In this document: piece by piece, positions 38,078 through 48,974 of the stretch
How positions within the stretch are numbered: position 1 is the stretch's first letter
How the letters are laid out: each line of letters begins with the position of its first letter
NCBI GenBank assembly: GCA_011772865.1
Contig: WVYQ01000009.1
Span: forward strand, 137,800 to 201,799
Length of the DNA: 64,000 bases
Reading direction: 5' to 3'
Source: Woeseiaceae bacterium
GTDB lineage: Bacteria > Pseudomonadota > Gammaproteobacteria > Steroidobacterales > Woeseiaceae
Program-made: the position numbers and the translations under genes
Notes under the pieces: generated by a model
What the model was told of the DNA's origin: nothing
What the model saw: only the letters and a program-made list of their open reading frames with translations
Databases searched by the model: none

Positions 38078-38168
<91 letters not shown>

Positions 38169-38370: not shown

Positions 38371-39159
38371 CTAGGTGTAACCCAGCAAGCGCCGCAGCCC
38401 GGGCAAAACGTGATCAACCATCTGTTTCTGCGTCTCGGGCAGTTCGTCCGGAAAATCGGGCGCCTCTCCGGCCAGGTTTTCCCTTGCGGTACCGCTTTGC
38501 TTGCGATCCGAGCCGACTCGGACCCGGTCGCGCCAATCGGCTGGTAACTCTTTGATACCGCATTTGCCCAGCAGGTCGGCGAAATAAGTCTCCGCCGCAT
38601 CGGAATCGAGGTCTTTCAGGTTTCCGAGCAGGTCTTCGAATCGCACGACTTCGGCCTTGGTTCCCAGCCAGCCGACGGCATTGTGCAGGAATATATCCTG
38701 CATCGAAGGCGCCTTCTTATGAATGCCGAGAATCATCATGTTCATGATTTCCTCGACCGAGACGTTGCCGCCTTTCAGGTGTTCGAGCGATCCCTGGAAG
38801 GTATCGGAAAGAAAAAAGCGTGCCCTGGCAAGAACCCAGTCGTAAGGATCGCGAACGAGGATCGTGTGTTTGACTTTATGCAGCGCGATTGCTGCGTCGT
38901 CGGAAAAGAGTAAATGCCCCCAGCTGAGAAAGGGCTTGTCCTGAGAAAATGCGGCCAGATGCTGGCGCAGCACCGGGTGTTGAATAAACATCGCGTGGTA
39001 TTGCTGTTCGACTGGCACGAACATTCGCACAATATTGCGCATGAGGTGCGTGCCGCACTTGGGGACGCTATTCAGGAATACCGGCTCTTGCAGAGGGATC
39101 TGCACATAGTCTCGGTTCAGTTCGTTCAGGTTGTCGCCTGAAGCCACCACCCTCGGCAT
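38371..39159 (-). CDS. sulfotransferase-family protein
   Basis: 5'-PSB-like NSVPKCGTHLMRNIVRMF, VRDPYDWVLARARFF 3'-PB-like region; start placed at MPRVVAS because the longer ORF runs into a terminator. Confidence 0.75.
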   Translation of the reverse strand: MPRVVASGDNLNELNRDYVQIPLQEPVFLNSVPKCGTHLMRNIVRMFVPVEQQYHAMFIQHPVLRQHLAAFSQDKPFLSWGHLLFSDDAAIALHKVKHTILVRDPYDWVLARARFFLSDTFQGSLEHLKGGNVSVEEIMNMMILGIHKKAPSMQDIFLHNAVGWLGTKAEVVRFEDLLGNLKDLDSDAAETYFADLLGKCGIKELPADWRDRVRVGSDRKQSGTARENLAGEAPDFPDELPETQKQMVDHVLPGLRRLLGYT

Positions 39160-39203
39160 GGCATCGCCTTCCTGGTTGTTTCGGTCACCAAACAGAGTAC
39201 CCG

Positions 39204-39237
39204 AAAAAAATGTGCCGACAAAAGTCGGCACATTTTT
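39204..39237 (-). terminator. Rho-independent terminator after the TonB receptor gene
   Basis: ATGTGCCGAC-AAAA-GTCGGCACAT, 10-bp perfect stem flanked by A-run and T-run. Confidence 0.85.
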
Positions 39238-39252
39238 CGTTTGCTTTTCGGC

Positions 39253-42200
39253 TTATTGGTCGAAACTGAACGTGAAGTTGACGAAGTATCGACGCCCAAG
39301 CCAGTCGTATTGAGAGTACAAGGCCGACCGTCCCGCCGTTCGGAGCGGTCCGCCCAGACCACCGAAGGTCGAAACCTGCGGCGGTTCCTGGTCCAAAGCG
39401 TTCGAGACGCCGACGATCGCGCTGAGGCCGATGCTATCCATGTGATACGTGACCGAAAGGTCATGGTATTCGACGGCGTCGGCCTCGAGCACCCGATAGA
39501 CGGTATCGCCCCAATATTGCGCTTCGGGCCCGCCCTCGTCTTCGGTATTCGACACGTCACCGACAAAGCGCACGCCCCAGAAGAACGACCAGTTTTTCCA
39601 GTCATAGGTGGTCCACAACCGTCCCACGTGCTCCGGATGACCGAAGCGGCCGAGATTATCCTGGACATTGCCCGGGAACAGGGCCGTATTCCTCTCTTCG
39701 AGCAGGGTGTGCTGGGTATCGATCTCGAGCGTGCCGTCGCCGATATCCACGACCCAACGAAGCGCGATGTCGTAGCCGTTACTCACCTGGCTGGCTACGT
39801 TGAGAAACCGGTCCTGGATGTTGTCGACGCCGCCGTTGATGCCCGATCGGTCGAACAGGTCGCAGAGCGGTTCGTTCGGGTAGAACTGCGAGCTGTAACA
39901 GCCGCTGACTATCGCCCCCTCCAGGCTCGTGATCTGGTCCTCGATCTCGATGTCGAAGTAGTCGACCGAGAGGCTCAGGTCGGCGAACGCCGGCTGCCAG
40001 ACAAAACCGACCGTTGTCGACGTGGACGTCTCGGCCTCGAGCTCGCCGATATTGCCTTGCCTGATCATAGTTGCCGAAACCGTGCCGCCGGTGTAGTCAG
40101 CCGGCAGCCCAGCCGGGTAATCCGGCGACCGCGTCTCGGCCGCGCAGTTGTCGGCAACGCGCTGGGTGATATCGCCACGGGCGAGCGCGGCGCCCCAATC
40201 CCTGCACGGGTCGATATTACGCTGCGAAGGAAAACTTGTTTCGTCCGCAAGGTACAGCTCGAACAACGCCGGCGTCCTGAAGGACGTTCCTTGCGTTGCC
40301 CGGAGCCTGAACGTGTCCGTGATCGCCCAGTTGAGTCCGACTTTGTAGGTATCGCCCGTGCCGTAAGTGTCGACGTCGTTATAGCGATACGAGCCGGTAA
40401 AGCTCAGGTCGTAGAACCCGGCCCTGTCGGCGAGAATCGGGATATCCACCTCGGCAAACACGGCCTTCGTGTTCTGATCGCCCGATGTGATACCCGCCGA
40501 CGAACTGCCCCAGGCATTGCCGGCACGGACGATTTCGCCCGGAACGTCGTGTATGTCGTCATCCCGGATGTGGAAGCCGAAGGCGACGCCGAGATCGCCG
40601 GCCGGTAACTGCATGATCGGGCCGGTGACGAAGGCCTCCCAGGAAGACTGCTTGTAGACCGTGTTGCCGAAGTCCATGCCGAACAGGTACTCCTGCATTG
40701 CAGGCGAGATATTGCCGGCCAGGAACTGCGGATCGAGCCACGGGATATCCTGGCAGGGCACGCCCCTTATCGAGGTGGTCGGAACCCAATTCGCGCAGGA
40801 GCCGTCCAGGCCGCCGTAGTCGTAGAGCCAGTTCTGGTCGTAGATCGAGTCGCCGTAGATCTCTTCGCCAACGTAATCGCCGTCGGACTTGCTGTACTGG
40901 AAGGAGAGGTCGTAGCTCCAGTCTTCGCCGAATTCGCCGCGCAGGCCGGCTACGTAACGCTCGTAATCGACCGTGACTTTCTCGTCGGAGCCGCGATCGG
41001 TGATTGCCGTGGGGCTGAACCACGAAAGGCCCGCCCACCCCGAATTGACCGAGTTCGTCACACCGAAGAAATCGCCCCCGTTATAGACGTAGCCCCAGAA
41101 CTGCCGATAGCTGTTTGCCGTCGTCTCGCGCCTGTTCAACAGGGCCTCGCCGTACAGCGTCATGGTGTCTGTCACATCGAACTCGACGTCGGCCCAGAAC
41201 GTCGTCCGCTCGATCTCGGGAATCAGGCTTGTCTGCTGCTGGAATGGATGATCCCTGTTCGTTACGGCATCCGACGCCCGGTCATAATCGACCAGGAACC
41301 ATCCGGGCGGTGTAACCAGGAAGTCCGGATTCGTCGGGTCGACTTCCAGTTCGGGTATGTACTGCGCCAGGTCGCCGTCGTAGTCGTATTGTGCGAGTGT
41401 CTGGAAGTTCGGCACGTTGCCGCCCGGCCCCTGGTAGTCATAGAGCCAGACGTGGCCCCAGGTCAGGTCGTCACAAGCCGGCGAGTCGATACGCGGGTCG
41501 ATCAGGTCGACGCGGTTGCCGCCGGCGTCGAAAATGTACTGCTCGGCACATTCGAAATAGTCTCTTTGCCCGCGCCTCAGTTCTTCGGTCTTGGCGTAAT
41601 CCGCCGTCAAACGGAAGTTGCCGCGGGACCAGGTCTTGCCCCAGGTCGCGCTGATGCGCGTCTCTTCGCCGCCCGACTCGGTAGGCTGCGAAACGTAGGC
41701 GTCAAAGGCGCCGCCGTCATCCTTCCGCGTAAAGATATTGACGACACCGGCGACGGCGTCTGAACCGTAGATCGACGATGCGCCGTCTTTGAGGATTTCG
41801 ATTCGCTCGACGGCGATGAGCGGCATAACGTTGAGATCGAACGACGATACGCTGCCCCGCGTTCCTGCCGGCCCGGCCCGGCGGCCGTTGACCAGCGTAA
41901 GCGTGCGGTTAGCGCCCAGGCCCCTGATCGACAGCGTATTTGCACCTGTGCCGCCGTTCTCGACGAATGCGGTCGAGGTCGCCGGTGTCACCTGTGGCCC
42001 CGTGGCGGCGACTGTCGACTGCTGTATCAGGGTGCCGAGGTCGGAGATACCTGCGGGGGCCGCACTGTTCGTCAGAACGACGTCCATCGGAGCCGATGTC
42101 GAGAACCCGTCCCTCTTGATCCTTGAACCGGTTACGACAATATTTTCGATTTCTTCGTCTGATGCCGCATCCGCCTCTTCCTGAGCAAGCACTTGCGAGG

Positions 42201-42267
42201 TGACGCCGAGTGAGCTGGCGGCAATTGCGAGGCTGATAGCACTCGCCAACGGATTCTTCTTGTACAT
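39253..42267 (-). CDS. TonB-dependent receptor
   Basis: signal sequence, ENIVVTGSRIKRDG TonB box region, plug with LSIRGLGANRTLTLVNGRR and ERIEILKDGASSIYGSDAVAGVVNI, C-terminal barrel ending in F-Q. Confidence 0.95.
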   Translation of the reverse strand: MYKKNPLASAISLAIAASSLGVTSQVLAQEEADAASDEEIENIVVTGSRIKRDGFSTSAPMDVVLTNSAAPAGISDLGTLIQQSTVAATGPQVTPATSTAFVENGGTGANTLSIRGLGANRTLTLVNGRRAGPAGTRGSVSSFDLNVMPLIAVERIEILKDGASSIYGSDAVAGVVNIFTRKDDGGAFDAYVSQPTESGGEETRISATWGKTWSRGNFRLTADYAKTEELRRGQRDYFECAEQYIFDAGGNRVDLIDPRIDSPACDDLTWGHVWLYDYQGPGGNVPNFQTLAQYDYDGDLAQYIPELEVDPTNPDFLVTPPGWFLVDYDRASDAVTNRDHPFQQQTSLIPEIERTTFWADVEFDVTDTMTLYGEALLNRRETTANSYRQFWGYVYNGGDFFGVTNSVNSGWAGLSWFSPTAITDRGSDEKVTVDYERYVAGLRGEFGEDWSYDLSFQYSKSDGDYVGEEIYGDSIYDQNWLYDYGGLDGSCANWVPTTSIRGVPCQDIPWLDPQFLAGNISPAMQEYLFGMDFGNTVYKQSSWEAFVTGPIMQLPAGDLGVAFGFHIRDDDIHDVPGEIVRAGNAWGSSSAGITSGDQNTKAVFAEVDIPILADRAGFYDLSFTGSYRYNDVDTYGTGDTYKVGLNWAITDTFRLRATQGTSFRTPALFELYLADETSFPSQRNIDPCRDWGAALARGDITQRVADNCAAETRSPDYPAGLPADYTGGTVSATMIRQGNIGELEAETSTSTTVGFVWQPAFADLSLSVDYFDIEIEDQITSLEGAIVSGCYSSQFYPNEPLCDLFDRSGINGGVDNIQDRFLNVASQVSNGYDIALRWVVDIGDGTLEIDTQHTLLEERNTALFPGNVQDNLGRFGHPEHVGRLWTTYDWKNWSFFWGVRFVGDVSNTEDEGGPEAQYWGDTVYRVLEADAVEYHDLSVTYHMDSIGLSAIVGVSNALDQEPPQVSTFGGLGGPLRTAGRSALYSQYDWLGRRYFVNFTFSFDQ

Positions 42268-42618
42268 GATCCCCCCCTTCCTGGTTTTCTACCGACCTCT
42301 TGCACCTGGATATTCAGGACAGCTTTCGAGAAGCTCTGTTCCCCCTGATCAGAGGTCCAGGCGCCGAGCACAGGGTCCCTCACGTTTCGTGACCCCGCGA
42401 GATTTACCTAGTGGCCGATGATATCGAAAAATTCTGCTGGATGCTGCTTTTCTTGTATGCTCTGGCATGCACCTGAACATTCAGACGCGAGGTAAGGCGG
42501 GATTCGAATCTCGCTACAGGCTTAGACTAAATCCAAACCTTCCGGCGCGGCCAGGCGAGTGGGAACAGCCCCGTTCCGCCGGACTTTGGTAATTCACGAG
42601 TTTCGGGACCACTCTCAC

Positions 42619-44226
42619 ATGCGACCAAAACGGATGCTGATCGTCGGCGGAGGATCCGCCGGGTGGATGGCCGCGGCATATCTCAACGCGGCGCTGAACA
42701 GGGGCGGGCGGCAACTCGTGGACATCTCGCTGATAGAGTCTCCGGATGTCCCGCGCATCGGCGTCGGCGAAGCCACCATACCGAACATCAATCATATCCT
42801 TGCCGTCATCGGCATCGATCAGTTCGATTTTCTGCGGCGAGTCGACGGCACGTTCAAGCAGGCGATCAAGTACGTCAACTGGGTAAAAAACGACGGTTCC
42901 TGGTACTACCATCCCTTCGACCGGTTCCTCGGGCGGGCCATCGATCGTTCGGCGCTGGACTGGCTCATGAGCGACCGTTCCATCCCCTATATGGAGACCG
43001 TTTCGATACAGCCGGTGATGTGTGAACTGGGACTGGCGCCACTGACGCTGGGCCGGCAGCAGTTCGGCAAGCCGCAGAAGTATGCCTATCATATGAACGC
43101 GTTGAAGTTCGCCGACTACCTCTGCGAACTCGCTACGGCGCGGGGCGTGAGCCATTACCTCGACCACGTGACCGACATCGAGCTGGCCGGGAACGGCGAT
43201 ATCTCGGCGGTGATGACCAAAGGGGGTAAACGCCTCGAGGCCGACCTCTTTGTCGACTGCACCGGTTTCGCGGCATTGCTGATCGAGCAGAAGCTCGGCG
43301 TCCGCTGGGTGGATTGTTCGCAGTGGTTGCTTTGCGACCGTGCAATCACGATGGCCGTTCCCTACGAACAACACTATCCGGGCTACGTGCGGCCATACAC
43401 GACGGCCACCGCATTATCGTCCGGTTGGGTCTGGGAGATTCCGTTACAGGACAAGCGTTCGCTGGGCTACGTGCACTCGAGCGCGTTTATCAGCGAAGAC
43501 CAGGCTGAGCAGGAAGTGCGTGATTTCGAGGGCGGCCATTCTGCGTCACTGGATACGAGAACGGTGCATTTCAAGGTTGGATACCGGGAGCATGCCTGGG
43601 TCAGGAACTGTGTGGCCATCGGTCTCGCCGGGAGCTTTATCGAGCCGCTGGAATCGACCGGGCTCTATCTGAGCGATCTCGCGACCGTGATGTTGTCCGA
43701 GCATTTTCCCCACGGCGACGACATGGAGGCGCTGGCATTCCGTTTTAACCGCATCATGGCGAATCGCTTCCACGAGATTCTCGATTTCATCAACATGCAC
43801 TACTGCCTCACGCGCCGCGAGGACACCGAGTTCTGGAAAGAGATCCGCAAGCCGGAGCGCATTCACGATCGACTGAAGGCGAAACTGGACTTCTGGCGTG
43901 TAAAACCTCCGTCGCCGTCCGATTTCGAGGATCAGTTCTTCCCGGGCCAGCCGGACAGCCCGTTGCCTTCGAACGGATATCCCGGCGACCATCGTAGCCC
44001 CGTCGATACCGCCACTGTTTTCAACCTGTACAGTTACGAAGCCATCCTCTACGGCATGGGATTCCTGGAGGAGGAATGCGATAAGTGGTACGGGACGTTC
44101 CGGCTGCAGCCCGGCGTCTTCAAGGAAGTGATCGATAGTCTCAACATGGCCACGCGCGAATTGCCATTGCACGATGCCTGGCTGCAACAGGTTCTCGGCA
44201 TGAAGCAGTATGAGAAGGCGCAATAG
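42619..44226 (+). CDS. flavin-dependent tryptophan halogenase family protein (copy 1)
   Basis: GGGSAGW dinucleotide motif, GVGEATIP, TFKQAIKYVNW (Lys as in PrnA K79), WVWEIP, EPLESTGLYL (Glu as in PrnA E346). Confidence 0.93.
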   Translation: MRPKRMLIVGGGSAGWMAAAYLNAALNRGGRQLVDISLIESPDVPRIGVGEATIPNINHILAVIGIDQFDFLRRVDGTFKQAIKYVNWVKNDGSWYYHPFDRFLGRAIDRSALDWLMSDRSIPYMETVSIQPVMCELGLAPLTLGRQQFGKPQKYAYHMNALKFADYLCELATARGVSHYLDHVTDIELAGNGDISAVMTKGGKRLEADLFVDCTGFAALLIEQKLGVRWVDCSQWLLCDRAITMAVPYEQHYPGYVRPYTTATALSSGWVWEIPLQDKRSLGYVHSSAFISEDQAEQEVRDFEGGHSASLDTRTVHFKVGYREHAWVRNCVAIGLAGSFIEPLESTGLYLSDLATVMLSEHFPHGDDMEALAFRFNRIMANRFHEILDFINMHYCLTRREDTEFWKEIRKPERIHDRLKAKLDFWRVKPPSPSDFEDQFFPGQPDSPLPSNGYPGDHRSPVDTATVFNLYSYEAILYGMGFLEEECDKWYGTFRLQPGVFKEVIDSLNMATRELPLHDAWLQQVLGMKQYEKAQ

Positions 44227-45843
44227 ATGTCACCGGCAGAACGCGTTCGGAGCGTTGTAATCGTTGGCGGCGGTTCCGCCGGCTGGATGGCTGCCGCCTA
44301 CCTGGATGCGGCGCTCAATCGAGGCGGCCGGAAAGTCGCCGAAATCAGCCTTGTCGAGTCGCCTGACGTGCCGAGAATCGGTGTTGGGGAAGCCACGATA
44401 CCGAGCATCAATCACATCCTCGCCGTCATCGGCATCGATGAGCGCGATTTCATGCGCAGGGTCGATGGGACCTTCAAGCAATCCATCAAGTTCGTAAACT
44501 GGCTGCACAACCGGGGCGAGCATTACTACCACGCATTCGGACGATACAAACCGACTCCAATAGATGATTCCGGCCCGCGATGGCTGCGGAGCAACCGCTC
44601 GATACCATTCATGCAAACCGTCTCGGCGCAGCCGTTATTGTGCGAGCACAACCTGGCCCCGAAGATGCTGGGCAAATGGGATTTTGGCGCGCGACTGACC
44701 TACGCGTTCCACATGAACGCGCTCAGTTTCGCTGACTACTTGTGCGAAATAGCAACCGCGCGCGGTGTCAAACACTACATGGATCATGTTGTCGATATCG
44801 AGATGGCGGAGAACGGCGATATCGACGTTTTAAAAACGCGTAACGGAGAACAGATCCACGCCGACCTGTTTGTGGACTGCACTGGTTTTGCAGCATTGCT
44901 GATAGAGAAGAAACTGGGCGTGAAGTGGGTCGACTGTTCACAGTGGCTGCTATGCGACAGGGCACTGACGATCAATATTCCGTATTCGCATCACTATCTC
45001 GGCTTCGTGCGTCCTTATACGACCGCGACCGCGCTCTCGGCGGGATGGGTCTGGGATATCCCGCTGCAAAACAGACGCGCGCTCGGTTACGTCCATTCCA
45101 GCGCCTTTCTCAGCGAAGAGCAGGCCGAGGAGGAATTGCGGGCATTCGAGGGCCAGCATGCAAAAGACCTGTCGTCACGGGTCGTGCACTTCAAGGTCGG
45201 TATGCGTGAGAAAGCCTGGGTAAGAAACTGCGTGGCCATCGGGCTTGCCAGCAGCTTCATCGAACCGTTGGAGTCGACCGGACTCTACCTCAGCGATCTC
45301 GCAGCAGTCATGCTGGCCGAGCATTTTCCCTATCACGGCGACATGGCGCCACTGGCGTATCGCTTCAACCGTATCATGGCAAATCGATTCTATGAGATCC
45401 TCGACTTCATCAACATGCACTATTGCCTGACTCGCCGCGAGGACAGCGATTTCTGGCGTGAGGTCCGCCGGCCGGAACGCATACATGATCGTCTGAAGGC
45501 AAAGCTGGAGTTCTGGAACCGGAAACCCGTGTCGGAGTTCGACTTCGAGGATCAGTTCCTGCCGGGACAGCCTGACACACCGCTGGGTTCTGCAGGAATG
45601 CCGGGCGACCATCGACCGCCAATCGATACCGGCAAGCTGTTTACCCGCTCCAGCTATGAAGCAGTAATGTATGGCATGGATTTCATGGGCGACGAATATC
45701 GTGAGCGATATGGTGACGACCGGCCGCCGAGTGCGGTCCACCGTCGCATCGTCGAGAGACTTGCGATGGCGCCGGGCAAGCTGCCGCCGCATGACGTCTG
45801 GCTGAAACAGGTGCTCGGCATGCCGGACTACCCTCGGGCTTAG
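44227..45843 (+). CDS. flavin-dependent tryptophan halogenase family protein (copy 2)
   Basis: GGGSAGW, GVGEATIP, TFKQSIKFVNW, WVWDIP, EPLESTGLYL; tandem paralogue of the preceding gene. Confidence 0.93.
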   Translation: MSPAERVRSVVIVGGGSAGWMAAAYLDAALNRGGRKVAEISLVESPDVPRIGVGEATIPSINHILAVIGIDERDFMRRVDGTFKQSIKFVNWLHNRGEHYYHAFGRYKPTPIDDSGPRWLRSNRSIPFMQTVSAQPLLCEHNLAPKMLGKWDFGARLTYAFHMNALSFADYLCEIATARGVKHYMDHVVDIEMAENGDIDVLKTRNGEQIHADLFVDCTGFAALLIEKKLGVKWVDCSQWLLCDRALTINIPYSHHYLGFVRPYTTATALSAGWVWDIPLQNRRALGYVHSSAFLSEEQAEEELRAFEGQHAKDLSSRVVHFKVGMREKAWVRNCVAIGLASSFIEPLESTGLYLSDLAAVMLAEHFPYHGDMAPLAYRFNRIMANRFYEILDFINMHYCLTRREDSDFWREVRRPERIHDRLKAKLEFWNRKPVSEFDFEDQFLPGQPDTPLGSAGMPGDHRPPIDTGKLFTRSSYEAVMYGMDFMGDEYRERYGDDRPPSAVHRRIVERLAMAPGKLPPHDVWLKQVLGMPDYPRA

Positions 45844-45882
45844 CGCCCTTAACCCGTCTCATGCTTCAGGGAGTCGCGTGAC

Positions 45883-46590
45883 ATGAATTTCCAGGGCAAC
45901 TTCAACCGGATATCGACCGTCGATATTGCGCCTCTGAAGAACCTCGTGCTGCAACTCACGCCACTGCATTGGGCGGACGACACCACGCGGCAGAACAGGT
46001 ATGAAGTCCACCAGGATACGCAAACGATCGGGCTGGTCTACGATGAGGATTTCCGTCATACGAATCCGACCCGGCGCCCGCCACTGGAATTGTTCGGTCC
46101 CGAGCTGCAACCCATACTCGCGGTCACAGCCGATCACTTCGAATCCCGTCCCGAAGCGCAAAGCCTGTTCGGAACCCATGGTCATGGCTATTTTATCCGT
46201 GCAAGCCTGGTGCGCCTGGCTCCTGGCGGCAAGATCCTGCCGCACCAGGACAAGAACTTTTCGCTGGCACATTCACACCGCGTACATGTACCGGTCGTGA
46301 CAAACGACAAGGTGACTTTCACGGTGGGTAGCGAGACTATCAAGATGAAAGAAGGCGAGGTCATCGAAATCAATAACCGCCGCTGGCATTCCGTCAGCAA
46401 TGACGGACAAGACGATCGCGTCCATTTGATTCTGGACTGGGTAACTCCTGCGGAACCTTGTTGTTGCAGTTATAAGCTTCATCCCGGTATTCCGTGCAGC
46501 CCGCAGGCATGCATCGAGTCCGATCGCCTGAAGATTGAGTGTAATTGCTTTCCCGATGACCATTCAGCGATGACCCCGAGTCAGGACTGA
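45883..46590 (+). CDS. aspartyl/asparaginyl beta-hydroxylase-like protein with Cys-rich C-terminal tail
   Basis: GGKILPHQDKNFSLAHSHRVHVPVVTNDKVTF...NNRRWHSVSNDGQDDRVHLILDW; tail CCCSYKLHPGIPCSPQACIESDRLKIECNCF. Confidence 0.82.
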   Translation: MNFQGNFNRISTVDIAPLKNLVLQLTPLHWADDTTRQNRYEVHQDTQTIGLVYDEDFRHTNPTRRPPLELFGPELQPILAVTADHFESRPEAQSLFGTHGHGYFIRASLVRLAPGGKILPHQDKNFSLAHSHRVHVPVVTNDKVTFTVGSETIKMKEGEVIEINNRRWHSVSNDGQDDRVHLILDWVTPAEPCCCSYKLHPGIPCSPQACIESDRLKIECNCFPDDHSAMTPSQD

Positions 46591-46613
46591 AGTGAATCGC
46601 TGAACAGGACCGA

Positions 46614-47585
46614 ATGCGGGCGCCGCAAGCAAAAGCGGATTTACGGCAAGCAGCGCGAAGCGCTACGAGCGGCTTTTCCGCACCTGGCATTGAGGCAATT
46701 CTCGAGGATACGGTCATCATTGTTTCTGCTCCGCGCTCGGGGAGCAGCCTGCTATTCGAGCAGCTGGCGCTGATCCCGGGAATATGGACGATCGGTGGCG
46801 AGAGCCATGGAATCCTGCGGGCGTTTCCGCATCTGCAGGCTGAAAACCCCGAATTCGACTCGGGGAGCCTGGGCGAAGTTCATGCGGATGCCGAAACGCG
46901 GCAGCTCCTGCAGAGCTGCTTTCTTTACCTCCTCAAAGATCATCACGGGGGACGCTATCTCGACCGGCCGGAATCGCAGAGGCCATCGAAAGTCTGCCTC
47001 GTAGAGAAGACACCTCGCAACGCGCTCAATATCCCGTTTCTTCTCAACGTGTTTCCAAGGGCAAAGTTCATTTATCTCTACAGGGATCCGAGGGAGACAG
47101 TCGCAAGTCTGATCGAGGCCTGGTCGCTCGGGCTGCAGACCGGGCGGTTTGTTACTTTCCATGGTCTGCCCGGTTGGGACAGACCGGCGTGGTGTTTCTT
47201 GCTGCCGCGGGGTTGGCGAAAAATGCGGGGCCGGTCCCTGGCCGAGATTGCGGCGTTTCAATGGTCGGCAAGTAACACCGTCATCATGGACGAGCTGGCC
47301 AAGTTGCCATCGCAGCGATGGACAACGATCACCTTCCAGTCGCTGATCGCGCAGCCCCGGGAGGCTCTGGCGAGACTGTGCCGGTTTGCCGGAATCGAGG
47401 TAGACGACGGCCAATTGCCAGATGGTATGTTGCCGCTTTCGCGGACCGCGCTCACACCACCGCGGGCGGACAAGTGGATGAAATACAAGAATGAGTTCGA
47501 AGCCTTGTCGCCGACTCTGTCTGCTACCGCCCGGAAATTCGAAAGCTTTTGCCAGGGCCGTCAGGAACCAGTGAATCAAGGTTAA
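46614..47585 (+). CDS. sulfotransferase-family protein
   Basis: IIVSAPRSGSSLLFEQLALIPGIWTIGGESH, FPRAKFIYLYRDPRETVASLIEAW. Confidence 0.88.
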   Translation: MRAPQAKADLRQAARSATSGFSAPGIEAILEDTVIIVSAPRSGSSLLFEQLALIPGIWTIGGESHGILRAFPHLQAENPEFDSGSLGEVHADAETRQLLQSCFLYLLKDHHGGRYLDRPESQRPSKVCLVEKTPRNALNIPFLLNVFPRAKFIYLYRDPRETVASLIEAWSLGLQTGRFVTFHGLPGWDRPAWCFLLPRGWRKMRGRSLAEIAAFQWSASNTVIMDELAKLPSQRWTTITFQSLIAQPREALARLCRFAGIEVDDGQLPDGMLPLSRTALTPPRADKWMKYKNEFEALSPTLSATARKFESFCQGRQEPVNQG

Positions 47586-47777: not shown

Positions 47778-48974
47778 ATGAACAGGACAGCATATTTCCC
47801 CTCGGTTGCGGTAGTGCTTGTATTGATGTTGCCTGGTTGCGATTCCTCCTGCTCATGGGGAGGATGTCCGCTGCCGGCTCTCCCGATAGAGCAGTCTGCC
47901 ACCGGCGTCTGGGGTGGCCAGGCCGTGACGCCGGCTCCGGCGGACGTCATAACGAGCTTCGAATTTGATGCGGCTGGGCCGTTTTCTATCGGTACCTCGC
48001 CTCGAACAGCCAGCTTTTCGAACGGCATCGCGAAGGCGGCCGGCGACCCCGCGTTTACTGTGACCGGCAGTTATGCGTGGTACGTTTCGGTCGGCACCTC
48101 TGCCACAGTTACTTTTGAGACCTTGCCCAGCTCCCTGTCGTTCTGGGTTCGTACGCAAAACGCAAGCGATGTTAGCGAAATCCAGGTCTTCGACGAGGCG
48201 GGGACGCTGATCCAGACCGTGACTCCGACGGATGTCTTCCAGGAAATCGTCGTAACGCGAGCGGCAGGAGAGACGTTTATCGGAAGCTTCGATGTGATCA
48301 GCACGAGTGGTGGCGATGTTGTCATCGACGATCTCACTCTCGGATACAGTTCTACGACCGATGCTATCGATTGCGTCGTCGCGGAAAACCTCGAGGTTGC
48401 CTGCGTGGTGACGGACACCGCTACGGACGAAGTCATCAGCGCCGCACGCGCGACCATTCAGGTGGCGAATGCCAACCAGGTGACGGGATCCGGAGCGCTT
48501 TACGCAGTACCCGGGTCGATACTCATCGATGGCTCGGCCGTTGCGGCGTTGACGATAACGGGCGGGACTTTCGTCGAAAGAACCACCCTGGATTTGACCG
48601 TGACCGCTGCCGGCGTCACGACAACCATTGCGACCACGTACGATGCTATTTATGAGCGTGGCAGCAGTCTGGACACGGTGGCCGGCGTCTACACGTCGTT
48701 CGACATTTATGGGGACCCATCGTCATTCGCGATTGATGCAGCCGGTGCAATTACCGCGCAATCCAATTCCGGCTGTGTTGCGAACGGACAAGTGACCATC
48801 ATCGATCCCCTGTTCAATGCCTACGACGTAAGCTTCGATCTCAGTAACTGCGCGGGCCTTGACGGGTCATACGACGGTCTGGGAATAACCCAGGACGGGA
48901 ACGCAACAGACGATGAGTTGCCATTCGCTGTGTTCACCGGGCAGACGGTGATTGTCGGCGATCCTGTCAAATAG
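47778..48974 (+). CDS. hypothetical lipoprotein, all-beta-like extracytoplasmic protein
   Basis: lipobox LMLPGC; Ser/Thr/Ala-rich beta-strand-like body; SD AAGGAGG. Confidence 0.75.
   Translation: MNRTAYFPSVAVVLVLMLPGCDSSCSWGGCPLPALPIEQSATGVWGGQAVTPAPADVITSFEFDAAGPFSIGTSPRTASFSNGIAKAAGDPAFTVTGSYAWYVSVGTSATVTFETLPSSLSFWVRTQNASDVSEIQVFDEAGTLIQTVTPTDVFQEIVVTRAAGETFIGSFDVISTSGGDVVIDDLTLGYSSTTDAIDCVVAENLEVACVVTDTATDEVISAARATIQVANANQVTGSGALYAVPGSILIDGSAVAALTITGGTFVERTTLDLTVTAAGVTTTIATTYDAIYERGSSLDTVAGVYTSFDIYGDPSSFAIDAAGAITAQSNSGCVANGQVTIIDPLFNAYDVSFDLSNCAGLDGSYDGLGITQDGNATDDELPFAVFTGQTVIVGDPVK

Follow-up and report, generated by a model that had tools for sequence, protein, structure and literature searches.

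A TonB-dependent receptor co-inherited with a sulfotransferase at a halogenase- and hydroxylase-bearing locus of a Woeseiaceae bacterium

Introduction

When genes for halogenases, a hydroxylase and sulfotransferases lie beside that of a TonB-dependent receptor, do they belong together, and on what do the enzymes act? This question is raised by a locus in a Woeseiaceae bacterium (assembly GCA_011772865.1), contained in the window analyzed here, a stretch of 64,000 nucleotides (contig WVYQ01000009.1, positions 137,800 to 201,799). At this locus the gene of a TonB-dependent receptor diverges from a run of genes for two flavin-dependent halogenases (HAL1 and HAL2), a hydroxylase-type oxygenase (HYD) and a sulfotransferase (ST2), and another sulfotransferase gene (ST1) lies on the far side of the receptor. 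The association of TonB receptors with Trp halogenases is already known, and at receptor loci of the Caulobacter/Xanthomonas type a Trp halogenase is found with SapC and cupin_8. A preliminary description of the window, made from the sequence alone, proposed that the six genes form one unit that tailors one imported molecule or surface peptide. All six were found by open reading frame (ORF) and Pfam analysis where that description had placed them, on the same strands (Table 1).

Results

Receptor and ST1 are inherited together

Homologous loci were collected by a scan with HAL2 (one genome per species, 80 loci); because a scan of this kind favours close relatives of HAL2, ST1 was used as a second anchor. 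ST1 was present in 61 of the 80 HAL2-anchored loci and was accompanied by the same receptor subfamily in 57; among the 55 halogenase loci with full flanks, both were present in 47. The HAL2-anchored loci span Alteromonadales, relatives of Idiomarina, Kangiella/Pleionea, Porticoccaceae and Woeseiaceae, and occur also in Alphaproteobacteria (Henriciella, Robiginitomaculum, Hellea), with 1–5 halogenase copies per locus; the unit is thus found again in distantly related marine bacteria. Further genomes chosen by halogenase all carried ST1 (11/11, in one case on another contig).

On even sampling of the class, ST1 is rare (one further, weak match in 274 genomes). Among 60 relatives it occurred in five genomes, and exactly these five also encode a receptor with 51% or more identity to that of the window; the window's own genome adds one more case. 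In a family-level sample of 199 genomes (the family to which a Pseudidiomarina genome belongs), ST1 was present in 17, always together with the receptor subfamily (17/17), and the halogenase subfamily was present in 10, all inside these 17 (hypergeometric P = 9e-13, a value that ignores shared ancestry). The seven ST1 genomes lacking the halogenase have ST1 directly after the receptor in each case, indicating that the minimal unit is receptor plus ST1 and that the halogenase is an add-on. Pairwise distances also correlate more strongly between ST1 and the receptor (r = 0.76) than between ST1 and the halogenase (r = 0.61). The order receptor, terminator hairpin, ST1 is kept in Gamma- and Alphaproteobacteria, the hairpin being present in 57 of the 68 junctions. 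Such an arrangement would be expected if a catalytic enzyme serves a receptor that is abundant; we read the terminator as setting a high ratio of receptor to enzyme. At three loci (L023, L035, L111) the receptor gene is duplicated in tandem beside a single ST1. A search for plasmid-borne ST1 gave no match.

The halogenase-receptor pair being a known motif, the sulfotransferases and the hydroxylase might stand beside it by chance, as in any ordinary neighbourhood. That other halogenase subfamilies lie near receptors in the same genus, and that HYD and ST2 are missing from most ST1 loci, would fit such a view; however, the linkage of ST1 to the receptor is near absolute and holds without the halogenase, so that chance is already contradicted for ST1, and HYD and ST2 follow each other in the same order in lineages as far apart as Henriciella and Porticoccaceae. 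We regard a chance neighbourhood as highly improbable, and the cassette is very probably a functional unit. The preliminary description had considered that the sulfotransferases and the hydroxylase might prove unrelated to the receptor-halogenase pair, but for ST1 the opposite was found. Its claim of one unit is borne out, in that ST1, receptor and halogenase co-occur across bacterial classes and HYD and ST2 are a conserved pair at the same loci. Its term ‘double sulfotransferase bracket’ misleads, however: the receptor's invariant partner is ST1, and ST2 goes with HYD.

HYD-ST2 and parallel assemblies

Of the 80 loci, 13 have HYD (at least 50% identity) and 7 have ST2, and where both are present (L025, L031, L033, L070, L089, L099) they are adjacent and ordered as in the window. 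The pair also lies beside other receptors without a halogenase (L118 in genome G014, L119 in genome G028); HYD-ST2 is thus a rarer layer than the halogenases and one that travels with other receptors as well. These two loci, each consisting of a TonB receptor, a TPR-sulfotransferase, HYD, ST2 and a GH20 hexosaminidase (GH20 tested for L118), are apparently amino-sugar loci.

Another receptor family, not related to the first (L034, L043, L044, L045, L047, L079), was found with the same halogenase subfamily along with hydroxylases and TPR-sulfotransferases, indicating that halogenase, sulfotransferase, hydroxylase and receptor were assembled at least twice, which supports joint action of the enzymes. 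The TPR domains on the sulfotransferases suggest protein acceptors. In addition, seven loci (L022, L023, L024, L026, L028, L029 and, in a shorter form, L044) encode, near the receptor-halogenase clusters, a protein in which a sulfotransferase-like N-terminus is fused to a PF05118 domain and to TPR repeats; the sulfotransferase-like part was recognized from weak Pfam scores and from motifs by eye, and the repeats were seen in those checked. The receptors of this second family are strikingly Trp-rich (2.8–4.5% Trp against a background median of 1.4%), and a protein without a Pfam match (SVVRGSQQGESHGGVYTVDF...) recurs at their loci.

Features of the enzymes

ST1 scored below the cut-off against Pfam Sulfotransfer_1 (E = 0.06, 13.2 bits, cut-off 22) and no Pfam family exceeded its cut-off, indicating a divergent family of its own. 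In 36 homologues from several classes, 57–70% identical to the window ST1, P33, K34, G36 and H38 of the 5′-phosphosulfate-binding motif SVPKCGTHL and R103, D104 and P105 of the 3′ motif VRDPYDWVLARARFF are invariant. Its AlphaFold2 model (predicted local distance difference test, pLDDT, 90) has the fold of sulfotransferases that use 3′-phosphoadenosine 5′-phosphosulfate (PAPS), and a Foldseek search matched it to SULT and StaL folds (best E = 1.3e-5, probability 1.00); binding motifs and predicted fold together place ST1 among the PAPS-dependent sulfotransferases. It shares this fold and the PAPS-binding motifs with SULT, StaL and Teg12, but is only 10–18% identical to them and makes up a tight family below the Pfam cut-offs. 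The start codon is most likely the ATG at 39159, judging from about 60 homologues. ST2 belongs to a different family, Sulfotransfer_3 (PF13469, 84.9 bits, cut-off 27), with R41, G43, S44, R157 and S165 invariant in 10 homologues.

HAL2 has the features of a flavin-dependent halogenase of PF04820: the FAD motif GGGSxGW (G14–G19) and WxWxxP (W274, W276, P279) are kept in at least 97% of 97 homologues, and K84 and E349, conserved to the same extent, align with K79 and E346 of PrnA. The phmmer alignments to PrnA end at PrnA residue 441–442, short of the C-terminal clamp for free Trp, and H101 and F103 on the ring side are conserved. The preliminary description saw no flavin reductase and called this unusual; the lack of a linked one would not be unusual for such halogenase clusters. 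HYD belongs to the aspartyl/asparaginyl beta-hydroxylase superfamily (PF05118) by its profile score (58.2 bits, cut-off 22.6) and by its Fe-binding His residues and 2-oxoglutarate-binding Arg (HxD...H plus Arg: H121, D123, H169, R179), which are kept in close and distant homologues. By these residues, the enzymes of the cassette look active. An obvious signal peptide was not seen by eye on ST1, either halogenase, HYD or ST2, suggesting that all should be cytoplasmic.

A loop signature in the receptor

The AlphaFold2 model of the receptor (pLDDT 85) shows a plug and a 22-strand barrel, as in TonB-dependent receptors, and its Foldseek matches are PfeA, FepA, BtuB and Cir. By strand order, residues 228–350, 385–428 and 472–528 are predicted to be the extracellular loops L2, L3 and L4. 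W270, W274, W391, W411 and W510 in these loops are invariant in 67 ST1-type receptors and largely missing from six more distant receptors. For closer comparison, sister receptors were used, which are 41–45% identical and lack ST1 and halogenase. W270, Y393, Y395 and S418 are found in 0% of the sisters and Y278 is mostly missing, and Y276, invariant in 77 of 77 ST1-linked receptors, is variable. The presence of ST1 thus goes with a change in L2 and L3 that includes Tyr, residues which a sulfotransferase could use. Receptor columns tracking HYD-ST2 were sought as well, with none convincing and with phylogeny as a confounder. At the sister loci (L228–L241) the receptor is mostly followed by a gene for an S9 prolyl-oligopeptidase, a pairing that suggests a peptide-import family.

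Gene layout

Across the cluster GC content stays level (0.57–0.62) and no insertion boundary is evident, so a genomic island was rejected. A tRNA-Ser(GGA) gene at 38078–38168, between dapA and ST1 and 0.2 kb from ST1, is a possible insertion point. HAL1 most likely starts with the ATG at 42619; the start codon of HAL2 abuts the HAL1 stop, and the two proteins are 69% identical. Promoters are placed in the divergent intergenic region from gene orientation; a sigma-70 consensus scan of that region gave no site. Directly downstream of ST2 lies a gene for a predicted lipoprotein-like protein (47778–48974, 398 aa), for which neither a Pfam or NCBIfam match nor a homologue in the related loci was seen. 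Among relatives of the cluster that carry a name, metagenome-assembled genomes labelled Woeseia/Woeseiaceae and related Gammaproteobacteria come closest.

Table 1. Features of the cluster, with positions in the window.
Feature	Position	Strand	Description
ST1	38371..39159	-	receptor-linked PAPS sulfotransferase, 262 aa; core gene
Terminator hairpin between receptor and ST1	39206..39237	none	14-bp stem and T tract
TonB-dependent receptor	39253..42267	-	1004 aa; PF07715 and PF00593
Receptor loop L2 codons (residues 228-350)	41218..41586	-	predicted from DSSP of the model and conservation; C240/C265; WGHVWLYDY motif (W270, W274, Y276, Y278)
Receptor loop L3 codons (residues 385-428)	40984..41115	-	predicted; W391, Y393, Y395, W411, W416, S418
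Receptor loop L4 codons (residues 472-528)	40684..40854	-	predicted; C491, C505, W510
Divergent intergenic region, receptor/halogenases	42268..42618	none	presumed promoters for both sides
HAL1, flavin-dependent halogenase	42619..44226	+	535 aa; PF04820, E = 2.6e-128; aligned to PrnA and others
HAL2, flavin-dependent halogenase	44227..45843	+	538 aa; PF04820, E = 4e-133
HYD, Fe(II)/2-oxoglutarate oxygenase, Asp/Arg-hydroxylase type	45883..46590	+	235 aa; PF05118, E = 1.1e-15
ST2, Sulfotransfer_3 family	46614..47585	+	323 aa; PF13469, E = 1.2e-23; comes after HYD

Discussion

What do these enzymes modify? Neighbour clustering (within 10 kb, any lineage) gave no scaffold, biosynthetic or catabolic gene conserved with the core, and no nonribosomal peptide synthetase (NRPS) or NRPS-independent siderophore (NIS) synthetase as a conserved neighbour, as a siderophore locus would have. 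As for a precursor peptide, no small ORF family common to at least three lineages was found in the loci outside the longer genes, as would be found at loci for ribosomally synthesized and post-translationally modified peptides (RiPPs). The recurrent partner of the enzyme unit is always a receptor.

These results bear on the possibility that an aromatic or peptide compound is taken up as a nutrient and then modified by the enzymes for trapping, detoxification or breakdown. S9 peptidases near 14 of the 80 loci and beside the sister receptors speak for it, whereas halogenation and sulfation would cost PAPS, FADH2 and O2 and be of no help to catabolism, for which no genes are conserved with the core. 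We hold nutrient processing to be improbable. The part of the preliminary description in which one imported molecule or surface peptide is tailored has accordingly fared less well than its joint unit: because scaffold-building genes are lacking and the same enzyme kinds occur at the receptor of the GH20 locus, tailoring of a nutrient is less likely than modification of the receptor or of a dedicated ligand.

A dedicated ligand would be a small molecule or peptide of the cell's own making (a signal, chelator or toxin), which the products of unlinked genes would build from common metabolites; the enzymes would finish it, the receptor would re-import it, and the loop signature would be its binding site. 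The co-inheritance data fit this explanation equally, the invariant aromatics in the predicted L2–L4 resemble a binding site, several halogenase copies would suit several ring positions, the ST1 fold is SULT/StaL-like, and the barrel matches best with receptors for siderophores and cobalamin, although such matches are generic. On the other hand, neither a conserved biosynthetic gene nor a precursor peptide accompanies the core, the pairing of sister receptors with S9 peptidases suggests peptide nutrition, and the same enzyme kinds accompany the receptor of the GH20 locus. Such a ligand is a credible candidate, to which we give somewhat less than an even chance.

Our slight and tentative preference is for the receptor's own polypeptide as the acceptor of the cassette enzymes, because of the strict linkage to the receptor, the terminator architecture and the TPR-fused sulfotransferases of the parallel system, and also because the same enzyme kinds occur with the receptor of the GH20 locus and the sisters pair with peptidases, as for nutrient peptides, which there would be no reason to halogenate. 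With receptor and ST1 as the core, ST1 would act in the cytoplasm as a PAPS-dependent enzyme, probably made at a lower level than the receptor because it follows the conserved terminator on their common transcript, and the receptor would be modified before export. Tyr would be sulfated, with Y276, Y278, Y393 and Y395 in L2/L3 as candidates. In an optional layer, one to several flavin-dependent halogenases would place Cl or Br on an aromatic ring, presumably of Trp in the same loops; in another, HYD-ST2 would probably add a hydroxyl group and then sulfate it, elsewhere on the receptor. The outcome would be an altered outer face of the receptor and, through it, a change in ligand affinity or in recognition by phages or bacteriocins. 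This full scheme, in which dedicated cytoplasmic enzymes sulfate Tyr, halogenate Trp and hydroxylate residues of the extracellular loops of an import receptor before export, is held with more doubt than the receptor as acceptor as such.

Several points weigh against modification of the receptor. No halogenated or sulfated outer-membrane receptor was found in the literature searched, the best structural matches of ST1 are small-molecule and glycopeptide sulfotransferases, and a change of ligand could also account for the loop signature. The Tyr candidates are imperfectly kept, Y393 being Phe in 4 of 77 ST1-linked receptors and Y395 lost in 4 of 77, and the sister receptors retain W274, W391 and mostly W411. 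The five invariant loop Trp were dropped as halogenase targets: since they are retained in all halogenase-free receptors (the seven genomes above and G053), halogenation does not account for their conservation, and they do not speak for an action of the halogenase on the receptor. Nor are halogenase-linked receptors Trp-rich in general, since bulk Trp is not raised in halogenase-adjacent receptors (p = 0.26). The only Trp leaning the expected way is W416, present in 65 of 69 receptors with and 5 of 8 without a halogenase (p = 0.02, with no correction for the testing of many positions or for relatedness).

Compared with known systems, the cassette resembles the SapC/cupin_8 receptor loci in having flavin halogenases and an oxygenase-type gene and no obvious biosynthetic scaffold. 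It differs in that neither SapC (PF07277) nor cupin_8 (PF13621) occurs in the cluster or directly beside it, and in its dedicated sulfotransferase core and extra HYD-ST2. The same genome has, on contig C14 (L116), a second cassette of the classical type, in which two other Trp halogenases that share only about 37% identity with HAL2 stand with two cupin_8 genes and SapC; nearby are an RpiR-like regulator and an ORF whose start resembles glucokinase, both recognized by eye only. In Xanthomonas, RaxST sulfates Tyr of RaxX, a small secreted peptide, in the cytoplasm. If the receptor is the acceptor, the likeness would be that Tyr of a polypeptide bound for export is sulfated in the cytoplasm, but no small target-peptide gene was found at loci of the window type. 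A precedent for a polypeptide acceptor of halogenases is given by SrpI and its relatives, flavin-dependent brominases which modify Trp in ribosomal peptides (PMC11791876); these work in RiPP clusters with precursor genes, none of which was found here. For the orphan halogenases BrvH and the Xcc enzymes, which are likewise PF04820 members outside classical product clusters, the native substrate is an open question (PMC5945002, PMC7336383). The BrvH gene adjoins a second halogenase gene (PMC5945002). These enzymes belong to a different subfamily from the window halogenases; BrvH ranks, as a match (6frl), below PrnA and others, and the BrvH and Xcc papers name no TonB receptor, unlike the cluster described here.

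No description of a cassette of receptor, halogenase and sulfotransferase was found in the literature searched, with most subscription papers outside the search; a cassette whose core is a receptor and its obligate, private sulfotransferase, with halogenases and HYD-ST2 as layers, thus appears to be undescribed. Receptor-linked Trp-halogenase genes are widespread, and a smaller and stricter unit is now seen, consisting of a receptor and a single sulfotransferase of its own; it occurs in culturable bacteria such as Pseudidiomarina and Arsukibacterium. The halogenase is a layer that is gained and lost, and receptor residues have been named that separate ST1-linked from unlinked receptors, so that a vague observation on neighbourhood becomes directly testable on the receptor. 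If the receptor is indeed the acceptor, this would be a previously undescribed layer of post-translational modification on bacterial import receptors, in which decoration of the loops could adjust the binding of ligands or allow escape from phages and bacteriocins, and it could explain the orphan ‘Trp halogenases’ beside TonB receptors.

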